DNA of 35,908 nt. Source: Acidisphaera sp. L21. GTDB lineage: Bacteria > Pseudomonadota > Alphaproteobacteria > Acetobacterales > Acetobacteraceae. Where the stretch lies: assembly GCF_009765685.1 (NCBI RefSeq), contig NZ_LMUY01000033.1, positions 1 to 35,908 of the forward strand, written 5' to 3'. The notes below the pieces were generated by a model, which saw only the letters and a program-made list of their open reading frames with translations, had not been told where the DNA came from and made no database searches. The position numbers were made by a program, and so were the translations under genes. The stretch's first letter is position 1. Each line of letters begins with the position of its first letter. Of this stretch, positions 3,247 through 10,161 are shown piece after piece.

Positions 3247-4571
3247 TAGCGGCTGCTGGGTCGATCGAGGCCGAGCCGGGTTCGTAAGGTGCCGTCTTCG
3301 TAGCGTGTGCGGTAAAGCCCGCGTCGCTGCAGCTCTGGTACCACCATGTCCACGAAATCCACCAGTCCGGCGGGGGTGTAGACGGGCAGTAGATTGAACC
3401 CGTCCGCGGCACCACTGCCGAACCATTCCTCCATGTGGTCTACGACCTGCCCGGGCGTCCCGATGATCTGGCAATGACCATTGCCAGCCGCGATCGCCAG
3501 ATAAAGTTGCCGGATGGTGAGGTTCTGCCGCTGCGCCATGTCGTACATCACCTGCCCCCTGCTCTGCCGCCACTGCGGCAATAGCGGCACCGGGCCGTCC
3601 ACCGGGTAAGCACTGAGATCGCCCATCGAAAACGCGAGCTGGGACAGCCCGACCACGGGATCGACGAGCGCTTGCAGCGCCTCGTATTTGTCACGTGCCT
3701 CCTGCGCCGTGTTCCCGACGATCGCCATCATTCCAGGCATGATCTTCAGCGCGTTCGGGTGGCGGCCAAATCGGGCCATGCGCCCCTTGACGGTGGCGTA
3801 GTATTCCTGGGCCGTCTGCAGGGTCGGGGCGGCAACGTAGATGACGTCGGCGGTTTCGGCTGCCAACTCGCGACCCGGCTCAGACGCCCCTGCCTGGACG
3901 ATTACCGGGCGGCCCTGCGGCGTGCGTGCAACGTTCAGCGGGCCGCGCACCTGAAAATGCTGGCCCCGATGGTGCAAGACGTGTTGCCTTGCAGGGTCGT
4001 AATTGATCCCGGTCGTTTGATCGCGGATGAACGCATCGTCGTCCCAGCTATCCCACAGGCCGCACACGACCTCCACGAATTCACCAGCCCGCGCGTAGCG
4101 TTCGTTCGGTGGCGGCATCACCGAAGCGCCGAAGTTCTGCGCCTCCATGTCGGTATGCGATGTGACGACGTTCCACCCGGCGCGGCCCCGGCTGATGTGG
4201 TCCAGCGATGCGAATTTGCGGGCAACATGGTACGGCTCGTTCCATGTGGTGGAGGCGGTGGCGACGAGGCCGATATGATCCGTCACCATCGCGAGAGCCG
4301 ATAGCAGCGTCAGCGGCTCGAAATGCACGTTGTTGGCTTGGCGAGGGAGCGCCCCAGCAGGCTCGTCATAGGACCGAATACCAACCCCGTCGGCCAGGAA
4401 GGCCATGTCGAACAAGCCGCGTTCGGCGGTTTGCGCCATGTGGATGTAGTGGCGGAGATCCATGTTGCCGCCAGCATTGGCATCGGGATGGCGCCACGCC
4501 GCCGGGTGATAGCCGAGGCCCGCCATAGATACGCCAAGCTTGATCTGAGGACGGGACGGGGCGGCCATCAT
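3240..4571 (-). CDS. LLM-class flavin-dependent monooxygenase, NtaA/SnaA/DszA/DmoA family (LLM-A)
   Basis: A 443-residue luciferase-like monooxygenase that would use FMNH2 from a separate reductase and O2. The N-terminal GVSMAGLGYHPAAWRHPDA, the FMN-site region (ALAMVTDHIGLVATASTTWNEPYHVARKFASLDHIS), GRAGWNVVTS and GPLNVARTPQGRPVIVQAGAS are hallmarks of the NtaA family, whose members act on nitrilotriacetate, dibenzothiophene sulfone, dimethylsulfide and related compounds. The substrate is unknown here. AGGAG precedes tandem ATGs at 4571 and 4568, so the start is uncertain by one codon. The gene is divergent from the LysR gene at 4657, its likely regulator. It is a close paralogue of the gene at 26172-27542. 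The glycine pair usually preceding GRAGWN is S-R here. No reductase gene was seen in the window. Confidence 0.92.
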   Translation of the reverse strand: MMAAPSRPQIKLGVSMAGLGYHPAAWRHPDANAGGNMDLRHYIHMAQTAERGLFDMAFLADGVGIRSYDEPAGALPRQANNVHFEPLTLLSALAMVTDHIGLVATASTTWNEPYHVARKFASLDHISRGRAGWNVVTSHTDMEAQNFGASVMPPPNERYARAGEFVEVVCGLWDSWDDDAFIRDQTTGINYDPARQHVLHHRGQHFQVRGPLNVARTPQGRPVIVQAGASEPGRELAAETADVIYVAAPTLQTAQEYYATVKGRMARFGRHPNALKIMPGMMAIVGNTAQEARDKYEALQALVDPVVGLSQLAFSMGDLSAYPVDGPVPLLPQWRQSRGQVMYDMAQRQNLTIRQLYLAIAAGNGHCQIIGTPGQVVDHMEEWFGSGAADGFNLLPVYTPAGLVDFVDMVVPELQRRGLYRTRYEDGTLRTRLGLDRPSSRYQ

Positions 4572-4610
4572 GCAATCTCCTGTGCAACACTAGCAGCATA
4601 CCTCGAAACT

Positions 4611-4641
4611 AGGGCAAACCACTTGTGCTGGCAGCTGCCCT
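4611..4641. promoter_or_regulatory. Inverted repeat in LLM-A/LysR divergent promoter region
   Basis: AGGGCA (4611-4616) and TGCCCT (4636-4641) are complementary arms, and a GCAGCTGC palindrome (4631-4638) overlaps the right arm. They occupy the 85-bp gap between the divergent monooxygenase and LysR genes, where a LysR protein would normally bind. Evidence is position and symmetry only. Confidence 0.3.
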
Positions 4642-4656
4642 CAGCTTTTCTAGGTC

Positions 4657-5565
4657 ATGCGTCGCGAACTGCCTGCATTGAATGCCCTACGCGCCTTCGA
4701 GGCCGCTGCCCGGCTTGGCGGGTTTGCGATCGCGGCGCACGAGCTAGGGGTGACGGCGGGGGCAGTATCGCGGCATGTGAAGCTGTTGGAGGAGCGCACT
4801 GGGGTGATGCTGTTCGAGCGTCGCCCTCGGTCTCTAGTGCTGACGCCGCGAGGACGCGATTTGTTGGCCGTGGTCGGTGAAAGTTTTGATCGACTAGATG
4901 CTGGGACGCGAGCCGTGCTGCGGCCGGCGCCACGATCCCGGCTGAAGGTAAACGTGCAAACCAGCCTGGCGATCGGCTGGATGCTGGCCAGACTAGGCCG
5001 GTTTCACCGGGATCGGCCGGAGCTCGAGTTGGAACTATCTACTCACATCGACACGCCGGATCTTCGCGCGGGACACATCGATGCGGCAATCCTGCATGGG
5101 CATGGCCCATGGCCTGGCGTGGTGTCGCACTTCCTATTCGGAGATCGACTGCAGCCAGTTTGCAGTCCTCGCTATTCAATGGAACGAGAACTGCGCACGG
5201 CCGAACCTGCCATGTTATTGGCGGAAACGCTGATCATATCCCACACCGCACGGGACGACTGGACAGAGTGGTTTAGCCACGCCGGACTCCGCGGTGTTCG
5301 GCCACAGCGCACCATGACATTCGGATCGTCGCTGCTGCCGGCTCAAGCGGCTCTGCATGGGCTGGGGGTAGCGCTCGTGGATCTGGCACTGATTGGAGAT
5401 CACTTGGAGGCTGGGCGCCTGCTTGTCTTGGCGAACCTACCACCGCTGGTTCGTGGTTCAGGATATTATCTAGCCTATGCGCCGGGCCGGCACGAAGATG
5501 GGATGATTCAGGCATTTCGGCAGTGGCTGCTAGCTGAAGTCGCTGCCACGCAGAAGGCAATGTAA
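4657..5565 (+). CDS. LysR-family transcriptional regulator, GcvA-like
   Basis: A 302-residue LysR protein. The N-terminus LPALNALRAFEAAARLGGFAIAAHELGVTAGAVSRHVKLLEE is the GcvA-type winged HTH (residues about 5-65), in which AVSRHVK replaces the commoner AVSRQIR. The inducer-binding domain follows, with RLGRFHRDRPELELELSTH and DLRAGHIDAAILHG. It is divergently transcribed from the flavin monooxygenase gene LLM-A, 85 bp away, and probably controls it; that pairing is inference from the usual LysR arrangement. The ribosome site is weak (TAGG before ATG 4657). The codons and base composition look slightly more AT-rich than the right half of the window, but this was judged by eye. Confidence 0.9.
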   Translation: MRRELPALNALRAFEAAARLGGFAIAAHELGVTAGAVSRHVKLLEERTGVMLFERRPRSLVLTPRGRDLLAVVGESFDRLDAGTRAVLRPAPRSRLKVNVQTSLAIGWMLARLGRFHRDRPELELELSTHIDTPDLRAGHIDAAILHGHGPWPGVVSHFLFGDRLQPVCSPRYSMERELRTAEPAMLLAETLIISHTARDDWTEWFSHAGLRGVRPQRTMTFGSSLLPAQAALHGLGVALVDLALIGDHLEAGRLLVLANLPPLVRGSGYYLAYAPGRHEDGMIQAFRQWLLAEVAATQKAM

Positions 5566-5604
5566 TGCGTCTTCGCCTGGCGCCCGTTGCTACTCAGCGT
5601 TGCG

Positions 5605-5626
5605 CGAGTTGACGGCCGTCAACTCG
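5605..5626. other. parS centromere-like site of RepAB partition system
   Basis: A perfect 22-bp palindrome whose 16-bp core GTTGACGGCCGTCAAC (5608-5623) matches the repABC parS consensus GTTnnnnGCnnnnAAC at every fixed base. It lies 91 bp upstream of repA, where its cognate RepB would nucleate. Sites of this type are established targets of RepB in alphaproteobacterial repABC replicons; binding by this RepB is inferred. Confidence 0.85.
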
Positions 5627-5663
5627 TCCGCTTGTCATTTGCACCAAGTGCGCGACTTAATGT

Positions 5664-5704
5664 AGATGCGCTAAAGTTCGCCGGGAACGGTTTGAAGCGC
5701 ATCT
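5664..5704 (+). promoter_or_regulatory. Stem-loop in the repA leader next to the ribosome binding site
   Basis: AGATGCGCT (5664-5672) pairs with AGCGCATCT (5696-5704) over nine perfect base pairs. A nested GTTC/GAAC stem (5676-5679 with 5685-5688) lies inside the loop. The outer stem ends immediately before the GAGGAG ribosome site (5705-5710) of repA, so the structure could affect translation or act as a DNA operator for RepA/RepB. Function is inferred. Confidence 0.45.
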
Positions 5705-5716
5705 GAGGAGTTCAGC

Positions 5717-6931
5717 ATGGACGGTGTAGTTGGTAAAGACGAACTCTACCGCGACATTGATGCCATCATCAGCGCTCATGCGCAAAATCTCTCAGATAAG
5801 TTGCAAGCCCATCGCCTGGAGTTGTTCCCACCGGCAGCAGAGAAAACACTGCGGCCGTTCCAGGTGAGCGAAGCAGCCAAGTTGCTGGGGGTGAAAAGCG
5901 GATATCTGCGCAATTTGTCACTGGAGGGGAAAGGTCCCTCTCCCCAACTCAGCGCTGGCGGCCGACGGTCCTATACCGCAGCACAGATCCAGGAATTGCG
6001 GCACTATCTGGACGCCAATGGCCGCGCAAGCCGCCGCTACGTGCCGAAACGGGCCGAAGCAGAGCATCTGCAGGTCGTGGCCGTCGTGAACTTCAAGGGC
6101 GGCAGCGGGAAGACCACCACCGCGGCTCATCTGACCCAGCACCTTGCCCTCTCCGGCCACCGCGTGCTGGCCGTGGACTTGGATCCACAGGCAAGCCTAT
6201 CGGCGTTATTCGGCTTTCACCCGGAATACGATGTGGGTCTCAACGAGACCATATATGCCGCCCTCCGCTATGACGACGAACGCCGGCCGTTGGCGGAGAT
6301 CATCAAGCCGACCAACTTCCCCGGCCTGCATATCGTGCCAGGCAATATCGAATTGATGGAGTTCGAATACGACACCCCCCGCATGCTGGCCGCTCAGGAC
6401 GGCGCGTCAGGCGAGCCTGCGTTTTTCGCCCGCCTTCACGCGGCCCTCGCTGAGGTGGCAGACCAGTACGACGTAGTGGTGATCGATTGTCCGCCGCAGC
6501 TTGGCTACCTCACCATGTCGGCCCTATGTGCGGCGACAGGGGTGTTGATCACCGTGCATCCGCAGATGTTGGACGTTATGTCCATGTGTCAGTTCCTGTT
6601 GATGATGGGTGATATACTGGGCCATCTGAAGCGGGCGGGCGGTAGCATGGGATATGACTGGCTGCGCTACTTGATCACCCGCTATGAACCCTCCGATGGG
6701 CCACAGACGCAGATGGTGACCTTCCTGCGCTCGCTGTTCGACCAATACGTCCTGCTGCACCCGATGCTGAAGAGTGTGGCCATCTCCGACGCCGGCATCA
6801 CCAAGCAGACGCTGTACGAGGTAGAGCGACGCCAGTTTACCGCCGCCACCTACGACCGGGCGATGGAATCGCTGGACGCGGTGAATGGCGAGATTGAACG
6901 ATTGATCCACGGCGCATGGGGCCGAACCTGA
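5717..6931 (+). CDS. repA: Plasmid partition ATPase RepA (ParA family)
   Basis: A 404-residue ParA-type ATPase of the RepA subfamily that moves and positions plasmid copies together with RepB and parS. Residues about 46-100 form a MerR-like HTH for operator binding (VSEAAKLLGVKSGYLRNLSLE, then GGRRSYTAAQIQELR). The deviant Walker A motif KGGSGKTT is at 127-134, DLDPQAS at 154-160 and the Walker B segment VVIDCPP at 254-260. This length and HTH-plus-ATPase layout match RepA of repABC plasmids, not the short chromosomal ParA. GAGGAG lies 6 bases before ATG 5717. The stop overlaps the repB start (TGATG). It is preceded by parS and a leader stem-loop, which are probably involved in autoregulation. 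A repC initiator does not follow repB. Confidence 0.95.
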   Translation: MDGVVGKDELYRDIDAIISAHAQNLSDKLQAHRLELFPPAAEKTLRPFQVSEAAKLLGVKSGYLRNLSLEGKGPSPQLSAGGRRSYTAAQIQELRHYLDANGRASRRYVPKRAEAEHLQVVAVVNFKGGSGKTTTAAHLTQHLALSGHRVLAVDLDPQASLSALFGFHPEYDVGLNETIYAALRYDDERRPLAEIIKPTNFPGLHIVPGNIELMEFEYDTPRMLAAQDGASGEPAFFARLHAALAEVADQYDVVVIDCPPQLGYLTMSALCAATGVLITVHPQMLDVMSMCQFLLMMGDILGHLKRAGGSMGYDWLRYLITRYEPSDGPQTQMVTFLRSLFDQYVLLHPMLKSVAISDAGITKQTLYEVERRQFTAATYDRAMESLDAVNGEIERLIHGAWGRT

Positions 6932-7974
6932 TGTCGCGCAAGAACCTGTTGGCCAGCATCACCGGCAGCAAACCCACAGCGCCGGAGGGCACGCCGCCGT
7001 TGGCTGCCCGTCCATCAACGCCGGGTTTGTCCAGCCGCGGCGCCTTGGGGGCGGTAACCCGCACCATCGACACATTGGCAGCCCGAGCCAGCACCGCGAA
7101 GGAGTTGGAGGCACGGTTGGCCAACGGCGCCACCGTCGTGGATCTAACCCCGGCGCTGGTCGATCGCTCCTTCGTAGATGACCGCATGCCCGGGTCGGAA
7201 GAGAGCTACGCCGAATTGCTGGAGGCAATCCGGCAGACTGGGCAGGAGTCCCCAATCCTCGTGCGCCCGCATCCGCAGCAGACTGGGCGCTTCCAGGCTG
7301 CGTTCGGGCATCGCCGGCTGCGGGCAGCCGCCGAATTAGGTCGGCCGGTTCGGGCGATCGTGCGACAGCTTTCTGACCTCGAGTTGGTGCTGGCGCAAGG
7401 CCAGGAAAACAGTGCCCGGGCCGACCTGTCCTTCATCGAGCGGGCGCGCTTTGCCAAGCGGCTGGAGGATCTTGGCTACACCCGCGACACCATCATGACT
7501 GCGTTGGGGATCGACAAGACCACCCTCTCCCGCCTGATCTCGGTTGCGACGGAGATCCCGTCGGCGATGATCGAGGCCGTGGGCGCGGCACCCGGTGTTG
7601 GCCGGGACCGTTGGATGGAGTTGGTGGGTTTGCTGCGCAATGCTGGCGTCTCGCCCGGTGCGGAGGCTTTGGTGCGCACGACCGATTTCACCGCCCTGCC
7701 CTCAGATGACAGGTTCGGCGCCTTGCACCGCGCCTTCTCCGACCCGGCGCCCTCCTCTGTGTCGTTGCCCCACCCCGCCGATACCGCCCGACCGCCACGC
7801 GCCCGGTCAACTTACTGGGCGACGGAGGACGGCAAGCGTTTGGTGAAGATCACGGCCAGCGATCGGGCCTTTGTGCTGACGATCGACGCCAAGGCGGCGC
7901 CGGCATTCGGCGAGTTTCTGCTGGCCGAAATGGAGCAGCTCTACGACACCTACCGCACCCGCTTTAAGCGCTAA
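6931..7974 (+). CDS. repB: Plasmid partition protein RepB (ParB family)
   Basis: A 347-residue ParB-type centromere-binding protein, partner of RepA. The start chosen is ATG 6931, which overlaps the repA stop as TGATG and gives the typical MSRKNLLASI N-terminus; an in-frame upstream ATG at 6916 is less likely. Residues about 70-165 form the ParB N-terminal CTPase domain (RQTGQESPILVRPHP, GHRRLRAAAELG at 126-137, QGQENSARADLS at 156-167). The HTH is at about 181-205 (LGYTRDTIMTALGIDKTTLSRLI). The C-terminal third is a proline-rich linker and a dimerisation segment. Iterons begin 6 bp after its stop. Confidence 0.94.
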   Translation: MSRKNLLASITGSKPTAPEGTPPLAARPSTPGLSSRGALGAVTRTIDTLAARASTAKELEARLANGATVVDLTPALVDRSFVDDRMPGSEESYAELLEAIRQTGQESPILVRPHPQQTGRFQAAFGHRRLRAAAELGRPVRAIVRQLSDLELVLAQGQENSARADLSFIERARFAKRLEDLGYTRDTIMTALGIDKTTLSRLISVATEIPSAMIEAVGAAPGVGRDRWMELVGLLRNAGVSPGAEALVRTTDFTALPSDDRFGALHRAFSDPAPSSVSLPHPADTARPPRARSTYWATEDGKRLVKITASDRAFVLTIDAKAAPAFGEFLLAEMEQLYDTYRTRFKR

Positions 7975-7979
7975 TCCGG

Positions 7980-8046
7980 TTGGACTTTTGCGGGAGCCAG
8001 GCCTTGGACTTTTGTGGGATGGTGTCCCAGTTTGGACTTTTGCGGG
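7980..8046 (+). repeat. Three direct iterons downstream of repB
   Basis: TTGGACTTTTGCGGG occurs at 7980-7994 and 8032-8046, with TTGGACTTTTGTGGG (one change) at 8004-8018. Starts are 24 and 28 bases apart. They fill the 76-bp gap between the convergent repB and initiator genes. The same 15-mer recurs in inverted orientation at the other side of the initiator gene, so these are probably its binding sites for replication or copy-number control. Confidence 0.85.
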
Positions 8047-8050
8047 CGCG

Positions 8051-9031
8051 TTAGACGGTGCCGAAGAGTGGCGCAACAGATCCTTGGGATTTTGCGGGGC
8101 CGCCTAGTGCGTGCAGTTTCGGCGCGACCGGGGGCCTTGCCGGTTTCAGGATAATGCCCTTTGCGTCGATTTCGATGTCTGCCGCTGGGTAGACGGCTGC
8201 GGCAACTTTCAGGCTGTCCAGAAACCGCTCGCGAAAATGGTCCAGCCGCTTGTAGGAACTGCCGAATTGGGCATGCAGGGCGCGCCAGGTGATGGGCTTC
8301 GCCCCGGTTAGCACGTGCAGTCTATAGGCAAGCCAGCAATAGATATCCAGCGCCTGGCTGTTGTTGCTGATGGCGCGGATCGCAGCTTCTTCCAGCGGAA
8401 CGGGGTGTTTTTTCAATTGCTCGAAGAATGTCTCGCTCAACCGAGCAGTCTCGATGAAGAGGCTGCCTTGGCCCGCTTGGTCTGGCTCGTGGACGAACAT
8501 TGCGTTGTCCACGATCGACTGGTTGACCAGCCCGGCGCGTGAGCCCTGTTGTACGTGGAAGGATAGATGGCAGCGGGACAATCGCTCTGCTTGTTCGCGG
8601 ACGTCACGAAAGGACTTGCCGCCAACTGGAATGTCCAGCCGTCGCAGCCAGGCAGTGAGGCTGCGACCGAGTTCGATGTCGCGGGAGTTGGTGCGTAAGG
8701 CTTCGCTTTGCAGGAAGAGCAGGATCAGTCGGGCACGGCTGCCATAGGGGACGCCGACGAAGACGGTGCCACCACCGGGTATAGCCCGACGACCCGGTTC
8801 GACTAGCAGCGCGACCTTCTCGGTTTCCAGTCGCCACACGGCGTCGTCGGCCAGTTTGCGATGGGGTAGGGCGGCTTGGCACCACCCACTATACAGAAAG
8901 CCAACGCCCGCATCTTCGTCGCCAAGATAAGACAATGCGGCTTCGACGGCTTTTCTGTCGGCATCTGTTTCTGCCTGGCGCAATGCCTCCTGGCGACCGA
9001 CACCTTCAATGAGCCGATGCACATCACCCAT
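8051..9031 (-). CDS. Plasmid replication initiator, RepA_C-type (PF04796-like)
   Basis: A 326-residue initiator protein. The central block GGGTVFVGVPYGSRARLILLFLQSEALRTNSRDIELGRSL, then WLRRLDIPVGGKSFRDVREQAERLSRC, is characteristic of plasmid-encoded RepA_C initiators common in alphaproteobacteria and acetic acid bacteria. The family binds iterons to open the origin. The second half contains a winged-helix-like segment (NNSQALDIYCWLAYRLH, WRALHAQFG, FRERFLDSLKVA). The start at 9031 has GGGAGGG about 8 bases upstream. Iterons flank the gene on both sides, with a degenerate copy inside its 3' end. It is convergent with repAB and is not a RepC. Because repA is used above for the partition ATPase, no symbol is given. 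Confidence 0.88.
   Translation of the reverse strand: MGDVHRLIEGVGRQEALRQAETDADRKAVEAALSYLGDEDAGVGFLYSGWCQAALPHRKLADDAVWRLETEKVALLVEPGRRAIPGGGTVFVGVPYGSRARLILLFLQSEALRTNSRDIELGRSLTAWLRRLDIPVGGKSFRDVREQAERLSRCHLSFHVQQGSRAGLVNQSIVDNAMFVHEPDQAGQGSLFIETARLSETFFEQLKKHPVPLEEAAIRAISNNSQALDIYCWLAYRLHVLTGAKPITWRALHAQFGSSYKRLDHFRERFLDSLKVAAAVYPAADIEIDAKGIILKPARPPVAPKLHALGGPAKSQGSVAPLFGTV
8084..8098 (+). repeat. Degenerate iteron inside the initiator gene
   Basis: TTGGGATTTTGCGGG differs from the consensus TTGGACTTTTGCGGG at two positions. It continues the same orientation as the three copies at 7980-8046, 52 bases after the last of them, within codons near the C-terminus of the initiator. Confidence 0.5.
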
Positions 9032-9118
9032 CCGTCGACCCTCCCGTCTGGCCCCAAAACCTGCGGCACAGTGTGGTCAAAGGTGCTTGGATTGCAAGTT
9101 GGGCTTTTGCGGGAAAAG

Positions 9119-9153
9119 CTATTAGTCAGAGGGTATTAGAAGACTCTATTAGT
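9119..9153. repeat. Three AT-rich 13-14-bp repeats, possible DNA unwinding element
   Basis: TATTAG occurs at 9120-9125, 9134-9139 and 9147-9152, spaced 14 and 13 bases. The outer copies are identical over CTATTAGT. This stretch is clearly AT-richer than its surroundings and lies between a forward iteron and the inverted iterons. It resembles the 13-mer arrays that melt first at many origins. On the complementary strand the same bases also give TAATAC, a possible -10 element for the initiator gene. Confidence 0.5.
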
Positions 9154-9234
9154 ATGACCCGCAAGAACCCAGGGGGTAATTGAGTAAACCCTTGATTCTT
9201 CGCTGGCCGTGCCCCGCATGAATCCTGGGGATTG

Positions 9235-9351
9235 CCCGCAACAGTCCAATGGAGACTTACGCTGCGACTCGGCGTGGCGTTTTGCGGCGAATCCTACCGA
9301 CTCCGAGTACGCCGCCCGCAAAAGTCCAATCTTGCTCCCGCAAGAGTCCAA
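9235..9351 (-). repeat. Three inverted iterons upstream of the initiator gene
   Basis: Read on the minus strand, the copies are TTGGACTGTTGCGGG (9235-9249), TTGGACTTTTGCGGG (9315-9329, identical to the downstream iterons) and TTGGACTCTTGCGGG (9337-9351). The last two start 22 bases apart, about two helical turns. They end 7 bases before the 3' end of the DUF4239 gene. Confidence 0.82.
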
Positions 9352-9357
9352 TTCTGG

Positions 9358-10161
9358 TCAATTCGGTGCATCCATGTGGACCAATGCATCCCGCAACGGC
9401 TGGCTCGGCAAGGCGAGCAGGCCGTCATACGGCGTGTCAAAATCCAGCACGAGGAACAATGCCGAGGCGATGGACAGCCCACAAAAGAAGATCGTCGTGT
9501 AGATCACGCGATTGCGCGGGGCGCTGAGCCCAAACATGACGAACACGATCATCAACCAGAACACCAACAACGCCAGGAACGGCCAAGACACCGTGCTGTA
9601 AGCCGTCTCGATCAGTGTCCAGCGCGTCTGCATGGTGTTGCCCATGCGGGCACGCAGTGCGTCGGCAATATGGGCATGCATGGCGTCGGTGGGGGTTAGT
9701 GCCTCGATCGTCAGGTCGACATTCAGCAGCAACTTGCCGAGCCCCGTGCATTCGATCGGCTGGCCGCTCGCGCACGATCGGATGACATCGATGTTGCCGG
9801 CCGGTTTCGGCTCGCGGGGCCAGGTGCTGGCGATGGCGGCCGCGGTGTAGTCGCGCAGTTGGTGCCGGGCATCCGCGGTTTCGGGGCCATACTCGCGCAG
9901 GCGCAAATCCAGTTCGATCAGTTGGATCGCATAGCCGCGCAGCATATCGGTCTGGCTGTCGAACCGCGCCTTCACCGTCGTCGTCAGCAGCCCCAGTACC
10001 AAGGCGGCGAAGGTGATGAGCATGCCAATCACCAAGCGCATCGAGTCGACGGTGTCGCGGCTGAAATGGTGCTCCGACAGCGTCTGGCGCAGCCAAAACC
10101 CGGCGGCGCTGCTGCCGAACAGCAGGGTCAGGACCAAGGCGGTCTCGGCAATCGGGATCAT
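9358..10161 (-). CDS. DUF4239 (bestrophin-like domain) membrane protein
   Basis: A 267-residue predicted inner-membrane protein of unknown function. There are two N-terminal membrane segments (residues about 5-25, TALVLTLLFGSSAAGFWL, and about 43-65, LVIGMLITFAALVLGLLTT). A soluble stretch follows, with LRLREYGPETADAR and RDYTAAAI, then two C-terminal membrane segments (PFLALLVFWLMIVFVMFG and IYTTIFFCGLSIASALFLVL). The tail FDTPYDGLLALPSQPLRDAL is the typical DUF4239 ending. ATG 10161 is chosen because it starts right at the first membrane helix; a longer in-frame reading to 10293 would add 44 arginine-rich residues that do not look like this family. It is divergent from the Ldh2-type gene. 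Its stop lies next to the origin iterons, but nothing ties it to replication. Confidence 0.82.
   Translation of the reverse strand: MIPIAETALVLTLLFGSSAAGFWLRQTLSEHHFSRDTVDSMRLVIGMLITFAALVLGLLTTTVKARFDSQTDMLRGYAIQLIELDLRLREYGPETADARHQLRDYTAAAIASTWPREPKPAGNIDVIRSCASGQPIECTGLGKLLLNVDLTIEALTPTDAMHAHIADALRARMGNTMQTRWTLIETAYSTVSWPFLALLVFWLMIVFVMFGLSAPRNRVIYTTIFFCGLSIASALFLVLDFDTPYDGLLALPSQPLRDALVHMDAPN

Follow-up and report, generated by a model that had tools for sequence, protein, structure and literature searches.

A repABC-type partition cassette and a convergent RepA_C iteron replication module side by side on an Acetobacteraceae contig

The window, the whole stretch of 35,908 nucleotides analysed here, forms positions 1-35908 of contig C122 (61,005 bp), a draft contig whose ends show no terminal overlap, in a 6.38-Mb draft genome of 162 contigs. 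It carries a two-gene partition operon with a palindrome upstream and a replication initiator gene that faces the operon (Table 1). The palindrome ends 90 bp before the repA ATG, and a LysR-type regulator gene lies upstream of it at 4657-5565. The start of repB overlaps the end of repA (6916 vs 6931), both genes are intact over the full length of their family models, and both products belong to the repABC partition families, with RepA matching TIGR03453 at 645.7 bits against a cut-off of 348.45 and RepB matching TIGR03454 at 375.5 bits against 201.5. RepA contains the Walker-type motif KGGSGKTTT as well as an N-terminal helix-turn-helix region with a MerR_1 match barely above cut-off, and the RepB segment GHRRLRAA aligns with GERRWRAA of a solved ParB. 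All parts of a type I ParABS system are therefore present, namely a ParA ATPase, a ParB with a ParB_N domain and a palindrome in cis by the operon. A search for sigma-70-like promoters 5′ of repA gave no match in 5400-5800. The gap between repB and the initiator gene is 76 bp. The initiator is a member of the RepA_C family, scoring 94.5 bits against a curated PF04796 cut-off of 26, and is 72.8% identical to plasmid proteins of Roseomonas mucosa, annotated as 'replication protein RepA'; its comparison with solved structures returned nothing notable (best E 0.47).

Table 1 Features of the partition and replication region, in window coordinates
Feature	Position	Strand	Description
parS, presumed RepB binding site	5605-5626	.	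Perfect 22-bp palindrome CGAGTTGACGGCCGTCAACTCG
Presumed repAB promoter/operator region	5627-5716	+	Assigned by position only, between parS and repA
repA	5717-6931	+	ParA-type partition ATPase; TIGR03453, E 2.2e-194
repB	6916-7974	+	ParB-type centromere-binding protein (by family); TIGR03454, E 2.4e-112; PF07506, ParB_N
Iterons 3′ of initiator	7980, 8004, 8032 (8084 inside 3′ end of initiator gene)	+	TTGGACTTTTGCGGG
RepA_C replication initiator gene	8051-9031	-	PF04796, E 1.2e-26; convergent with repAB
Iterons 5′ of initiator gene, presumed oriV region	9099; 9235, 9315, 9337	+ (9099); - (others)	TTGGACTTTTGCGGG; span 9099-9351
Cluster of 7 GANTC (CcrM) sites	9142-9348	.	One overlaps an iteron

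An earlier note made from the letters of this DNA had described the palindrome as a perfect 22-mer around a repABC parS core lying upstream of repA-repB, and both its extent and its place proved exact, the core GTTGACGGCCGTCAAC occupying 5608-5623. Fit to the loose repABC pattern GTTNNNNGCNNNNAAC means little by itself, since this pattern is common by chance: 0.33 occurrences are expected per window, 29 of 100 shuffles contained it and the whole genome has 123 places. Consensus fit as proof of parS was dropped for this reason. The palindrome carries more weight: no other perfect palindrome reaching 14 bp exists in the window, 200 shuffles contained a mean of 0.03 palindromes of at least 22 bp, and none held a parS-patterned palindrome of at least 16 bp. 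The site thus has the features by which repABC parS sites were recognised here, being palindromic, matching GTTNNNNGCNNNNAAC and lying near the operon. Its exact core is unique in the draft genome, where the pattern GTTGACNGCNGTCAAC with up to one mismatch occurs in three places, as an exact match in the window and on contigs C127 and C7. The C127 place lies in the gap immediately 5′ of the second strong repA of the genome, a gap that holds two palindromes of 14 and 16 bp, and the C7 place is non-palindromic. A third, weaker RepA above cut-off (373 bits) is encoded on contig C87, for which the genome scan gave no GTTGACNGCNGTCAAC-type site at up to one mismatch. As to the further parS copies that the earlier note had proposed to count on the full replicon, C122 contained none by the patterns used.

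The absence of repC was borne out as well. Three RepC queries gave no tblastn match (E 1e-6) on the pieces covering C122, and the gene that follows repB is the initiator, so that the operon has no downstream RepC gene with an origin inside repC. The sole PF03428 match of the draft genome is on contig C84, where the stretch 5234-8825 of L081 shows a repC with both RepC domains and without repABC-type repAB, a ParA-like gene lying 1 kb upstream of it. This 39-kb contig begins and ends with the same 44 bases, which suggests, without proving, a separate circle, and C84 is probably a separate circular plasmid. A repC elsewhere on the same replicon, which the earlier note had named as a finding that would speak against it, was thus not seen as far as the draft shows. 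The antisense ctRNA expected between repB and repC in a repABC operon was also absent: the ctRNA_p42d and S-element models had no match in C122:1-12000 (L083) or in window positions 4500-9600, and both matched in all six repABC controls, each above the gathering score in four of the six, these controls being from Rhizobiales only. No trace of a concealed repC or of ctRNA was found in the interval from repB to the initiator gene, and the idea of such a remnant was set aside. In genomes G077 and G073, repC was seen with a distant RepA-like gene 1.6 kb upstream.

The initiator gene is flanked by direct-repeat iterons, as in a RepA_C iteron replicon. Eight TTGGACTTTTGCGGG sites with up to three mismatches were found in the window, all of them within 7980-8098 or 9099-9351, whereas five mononucleotide shuffles had 0.4 sites on average, and the earlier claim of an oppositely directed RepA_C initiator with its own iterons was upheld. 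The first iteron starts 5 bp past the repB stop, and weaker copies occur at 9158 and 9213. Relative to the initiator start, the upstream iterons of the window lie at -320, -298, -218 and -82. Similar positions were found, at 2-3 mismatches from the window consensus, in L018 (-315, -287, -217, -85), L017 (-316, -287, -218, -86, plus -343) and L022 (-310, -284, -213, -81, plus -336), and L016 has only -318, -198 and -86 at the same degree of mismatch. In L016, L018 and L022, an iteron copy also lies just past the end of the initiator gene. Five other members of the window's initiator clade (L010, L019, L020, L021 and L023) had no upstream TTGGACTTTTGCGGG-type iteron at up to three mismatches, and iteron spacing agrees with the window for part of this clade.

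The pairing of repAB with a RepA_C gene was also found on Acidisoma sp. PAMC 29798 unnamed1 and Komagataeibacter saccharivorans CV1 unnamed4. The trees described below include 13 distinct RepA_C-linked loci (the window, C127, L001, L004, L026, L039, L041, L046, L124 and L130-L133), with L126 and L123 counted once as they lie on the same contigs as L026 and L041, respectively; 11 are convergent and two are in tandem. How common the pairing is was estimated from a census of 200 family genomes, including our own, drawn evenly from a larger group, in which repAB loci with TIGR03453 scores above 600 bits were compared with the places of PF04796 and PF03428 matches and checked on the DNA. All counts are lower bounds; three TIGR03453 matches at 371-383 bits, above cut-off, were excluded from them, as were PF07506 matches in genes that tblastn shows not to be repAB. 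The census gave at least 15 strong repAB matches in at least 13 genomes. A RepA_C gene was adjacent in 9 of the 15; repC lay upstream of repA in two and about 41 kb off on the same contig in one, and the remaining three were on contigs of less than 7 kb and unreadable. The order repA-repB-repC was seen in none of the 12 readable strong repAB loci. Seen from the initiator side, 66 of 79 rows had no repAB in the stretch covered, many of these being short contigs beyond whose end repAB could lie. The draft genome itself has 16 PF04796 matches (~15 genes) on 13 contigs (C75, C145, C107, C122, C85, C47, C127, C159, C101, C83, C11, C74 and C63), and the next highest load in the 200 genomes was nine among the matches listed. 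Several family genomes also have genes with PF07506 domains (L092-L104 and L120; E as low as 1e-50) that tblastn shows not to be repAB, most of them in adjacent pairs.

Palindromes accompany the partition genes in most of these loci. Parsing of the 13 RepA_C-linked loci showed parS-like palindromes beside repAB in 12, and in 10 the palindrome was perfect (at least 14 bp) and located 5′ of repA or near the repB start. The L041 palindrome has one broken pair, L001 has two palindromes with two broken pairs, and no parS-like palindrome was seen beside repAB in L124. The 22-mer of L039 is identical to that of the window. Of the 16 RepC-linked rows, 13 had a palindrome in which no more than one pair was broken, the exceptions being L139, L141 and L142, and in L144 and L145 it lies solely 1.3-3.1 kb downstream of repB. 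The inner bases of the palindrome differ by clade, being of GGCC, GCCGGCCGGC or AGCT type, and both arms change together, as expected for a dimer site. RepB of clade 2 has an altered stretch (HPAEMTR-like vs DKTTLSR-like). An explanation of the parS type by the RepB recognition helix was rejected as no simple rule emerged, DKT-type RepB also occurring with the AGCT core.

The RepAB proteins and the initiators have separate histories. In a tree of RepA plus RepB (33 rows), in which some sister-group forks are weak or open and L145 and L141 are long branches, the RepA_C-linked RepAB took three placements among RepC-linked RepAB: the window group, next to Roseomonas repC-repAB (support 82/78) and Rhizobium repABC; the C127 group, near pTi and Methylobacterium at an open fork with long rows; and Komagataeibacter L004. 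The fewest RepC/RepA_C changes on this tree is three, and a single clade for all RepA_C-linked RepAB was rejected by the AU test (p-AU 5e-142), indicating several re-couplings of the repAB cassette. By parsimony on a midpoint-rooted tree, the changes would have run from RepC to RepA_C. The window RepAB forms a starred set of four together with L039, L046 and L125, of which the last two share much sequence and were both kept as rows, while the window initiator groups with those of Roseomonas, Belnapia and Dankookia and one on contig C85 of the same genome. Placing the window initiator with those of L039, L046, L001, L026 and L041 was rejected at a cost of 69.5 log units (p-AU 0.0003), the group having been set from the RepAB tree, though a quick initiator tree had already been seen. 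The mosaic replicon proposed in the earlier note therefore stands in that bona fide repABC-type RepA and RepB adjoin an initiator of an unrelated family with a differing history; its view of a singular joint, with repC as the expected third gene, does not, given the pairing on named plasmids and the adjacent RepA_C genes in the census. A second odd initiator, on a long branch, was seen in L131.

In DNA alignments, the match of the Roseomonas loci L016-L018 and L022 to the window covers ~8171-9249, which is most of the initiator gene plus ~220 bp upstream, and not repAB, and the relatives in RepAB have their best alignment at 5750-7627. These two patterns make it likely that the modules are joined close to the end of repB, whose stop codon is 5 bp away from the first iteron. 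The RepAB relatives also align over the initiator in shorter pieces at 64-71%, so DNA similarity alone leaves the joint unfixed.

The region upstream of the initiator gene is also marked by GANTC sites, 7 of the 20 in C122:1-12000 falling in the cluster of Table 1. In 66 RepA_C upstream regions of 350-400 bp each (the 79 minus near-copies), 243 GANTC sites were counted against 111.5 expected (sd 9.9; maximum 139 in 200 shuffles), an approximately two-fold enrichment, and 44 of the 66 contained three or more. Seven control pentamers in the same regions were at, near or below expectation, the highest being TG.CA with 92 vs 90.3. Tested singly, 10 of 42 chosen loci were not enriched (p > 0.05). 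An origin of the sites merely from iterons was rejected, as 34 of the 243 overlap window-type iterons (up to four mismatches) and 209 do not, the iterons of other lineages being undefined such that part of these remaining sites could be iteron sequence. The draft genome encodes one RAMA-domain (CcrM-like) protein, which is consistent with CcrM; among 14 control genomes, the domain was found in Caulobacter only. According to passages of PMC6090056 and PMC11514494, repABC origins and repE promoters are GANTC-rich, and nothing of the kind for RepA_C plasmids appeared among open-access titles, a weak negative.

Given these results, we consider it highly probable that the window holds the backbone of a low-copy Acetobacteraceae plasmid composed of two interchangeable modules, repAB-parS for partition and RepA_C with iterons for replication. 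In such a plasmid, RepB dimers would bind the 22-bp palindrome, the RepA ATPase would separate the RepB-parS complexes, and RepA and RepB at an operator by parS would repress their own operon. The RepA_C protein would bind the iterons flanking its gene and initiate replication at that place, with CcrM methylation of the GANTC cluster perhaps setting the time, and RepC, its internal origin and the antisense RNA that controls it would be unused. The coupling of repAB with RepA_C recurs in the family and arose on several occasions. In the window, the initiator module appears to have been swapped once more, for one of the Roseomonas/Belnapia-type lineage, probably joined near the repB stop. Since C122 is a draft contig without terminal overlap and PF04796 matches number 16 in the genome, spread over 13 contigs, another initiator could lie elsewhere on the replicon. 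A further reading, offered tentatively and with some doubt, is that repAB-parS is a free cassette repeatedly plugged into RepA_C replicons and that CcrM governs the iteron origins of these replicons in the way proposed for repABC, despite an unrelated initiator; this would be a convergent coupling to the cell cycle in which the GANTC cluster travels with the initiator module.

The palindrome could instead be mainly an operator of RepA/RepB, or a site for a LysR-type regulator, rather than a centromere. It lies in the presumed repAB promoter region, between a lysR gene and repA, and parts of PMC9040568 propose operon regulation for Rhizobiales parS upstream of repA. We nevertheless regard this as unlikely, given that the same core is found inside the repB 5′ end (+57) in Roseomonas relatives and beside repAB in other genomes, and that no second such site was found on C122; RepB, if it partitions the plasmid, most likely uses this single site. 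Operator and centromere roles can coexist.

Decay would be another way to arrive at repAB without repC: the module could be what is left of a repABC plasmid after its fusion with a RepA_C plasmid, with repC lost or elsewhere and repAB decaying or redundant. A RepC gene is indeed present in the genome, and composite plasmids that combine two replication modules have been reported (PMC5613091, PMC10194956). This is quite improbable in view of the intact repA and repB, the perfect palindrome and the retention of the pairing in 13 tree loci and 9 of 15 census loci; moreover, the genomic repC is on C84, with its own ParA-like gene and a 44-bp end overlap. An assembly artefact, in which repAB and the initiator were misjoined, might be suspected in a 162-contig draft rich in RepA_C genes (16 matches), the more so as the window and its RepAB relatives have initiators of different lineages. 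It is very improbable, as the convergent layout matches complete plasmids and the longest exact match between 7401-9500 and 15 other loci of the same genome, which hold only 7 of the other RepA_C genes, is 16 bp, too short to mislead an assembler.

Compared with repABC replicons of the p42d, pTi and pSym type, the modular backbone of the window shares the RepA and RepB families, the overlapping repA-repB, a GTTNNNNGCNNNNAAC parS upstream of repA, common in Rhizobiales according to parts of PMC9040568, and a GANTC-rich control region (PMC11514494 and PMC6090056, in part). It differs in lacking repC, the repC-internal origin and any ctRNA/S-element match, its replication presumably proceeding via the convergent RepA_C gene with iterons. 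With Acetobacteraceae RepA_C iteron plasmids it shares the closely related initiator and, in L017, L018 and L022, similar iteron spacing, whereas the nearest RepA_C relatives have no repABC-type repAB within the flanks covered. Acidisoma unnamed1 and Komagataeibacter unnamed4 likewise have repA-repB with a convergent RepA_C gene and parS-like sites at repAB, but their RepA_C genes are of other lineages, their parS copies lie partly or wholly inside repB and, in Acidisoma, the sites are imperfect. Roseomonas haemaphysalidis p546-2 and R. marmotae p1318-3 have sister RepAB (82/78) and the same parS core, but their records end with repC and an RPA gene, the latter checked against PF10134 in p546-2 alone, a position upstream of repA if the records are circular.

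Separability of repAB from repC has been noted before. Passages of Castillo-Ramirez et al. 2009 (PMC2783167) place repAB apart from ctRNA/repC in several alphaproteobacterial genomes and suggest module fusion, repC is absent from some replicons in figure 3 of PMC9040568, and parts of PMC9025767 list RepA, RepB, DnaA-like and other replicon types in Rhodobacterales. Plasmid records already name RepA, RepB and 'replication protein RepA', and among open-access literature titles no description of the repAB-RepA_C pairing was found. The principle is known. New here are the repeated occurrence of the pairing, how many re-couplings took place, a second exchange within the window, the different types of parS and the pattern of GANTC sites. 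According to the trees and the census, the repABC partition cassette can be separated from RepC and has joined a different initiator family on several occasions, which bears on the compatibility of plasmids with many co-resident relatives. In this genome, RepB clade and parS core are not the same for the two strong repAB loci, and 16 RepA_C matches coexist. The GANTC enrichment 5′ of RepA_C genes suggests a connection, open to testing, of one type of iteron plasmid with the cell cycle of Alphaproteobacteria. Annotators who meet repAB lacking repC in Acetobacteraceae should regard it as a type of replicon rather than a damaged repABC.

Two other arrangements were seen among the loci collected. 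L121, L122, L136 with L002 and L148 with L003 are Roseomonas-type replicons with the order RPA-repC-repA-repB, which for the two named plasmids assumes circular records. L127 (G052:C71), excluded from the RepAB tree for its odd gene set, has a gene with a RepB domain, a distant RepA_C gene and another, different pair of parA-parB-like genes in tandem, resembling two partition systems around one initiator.
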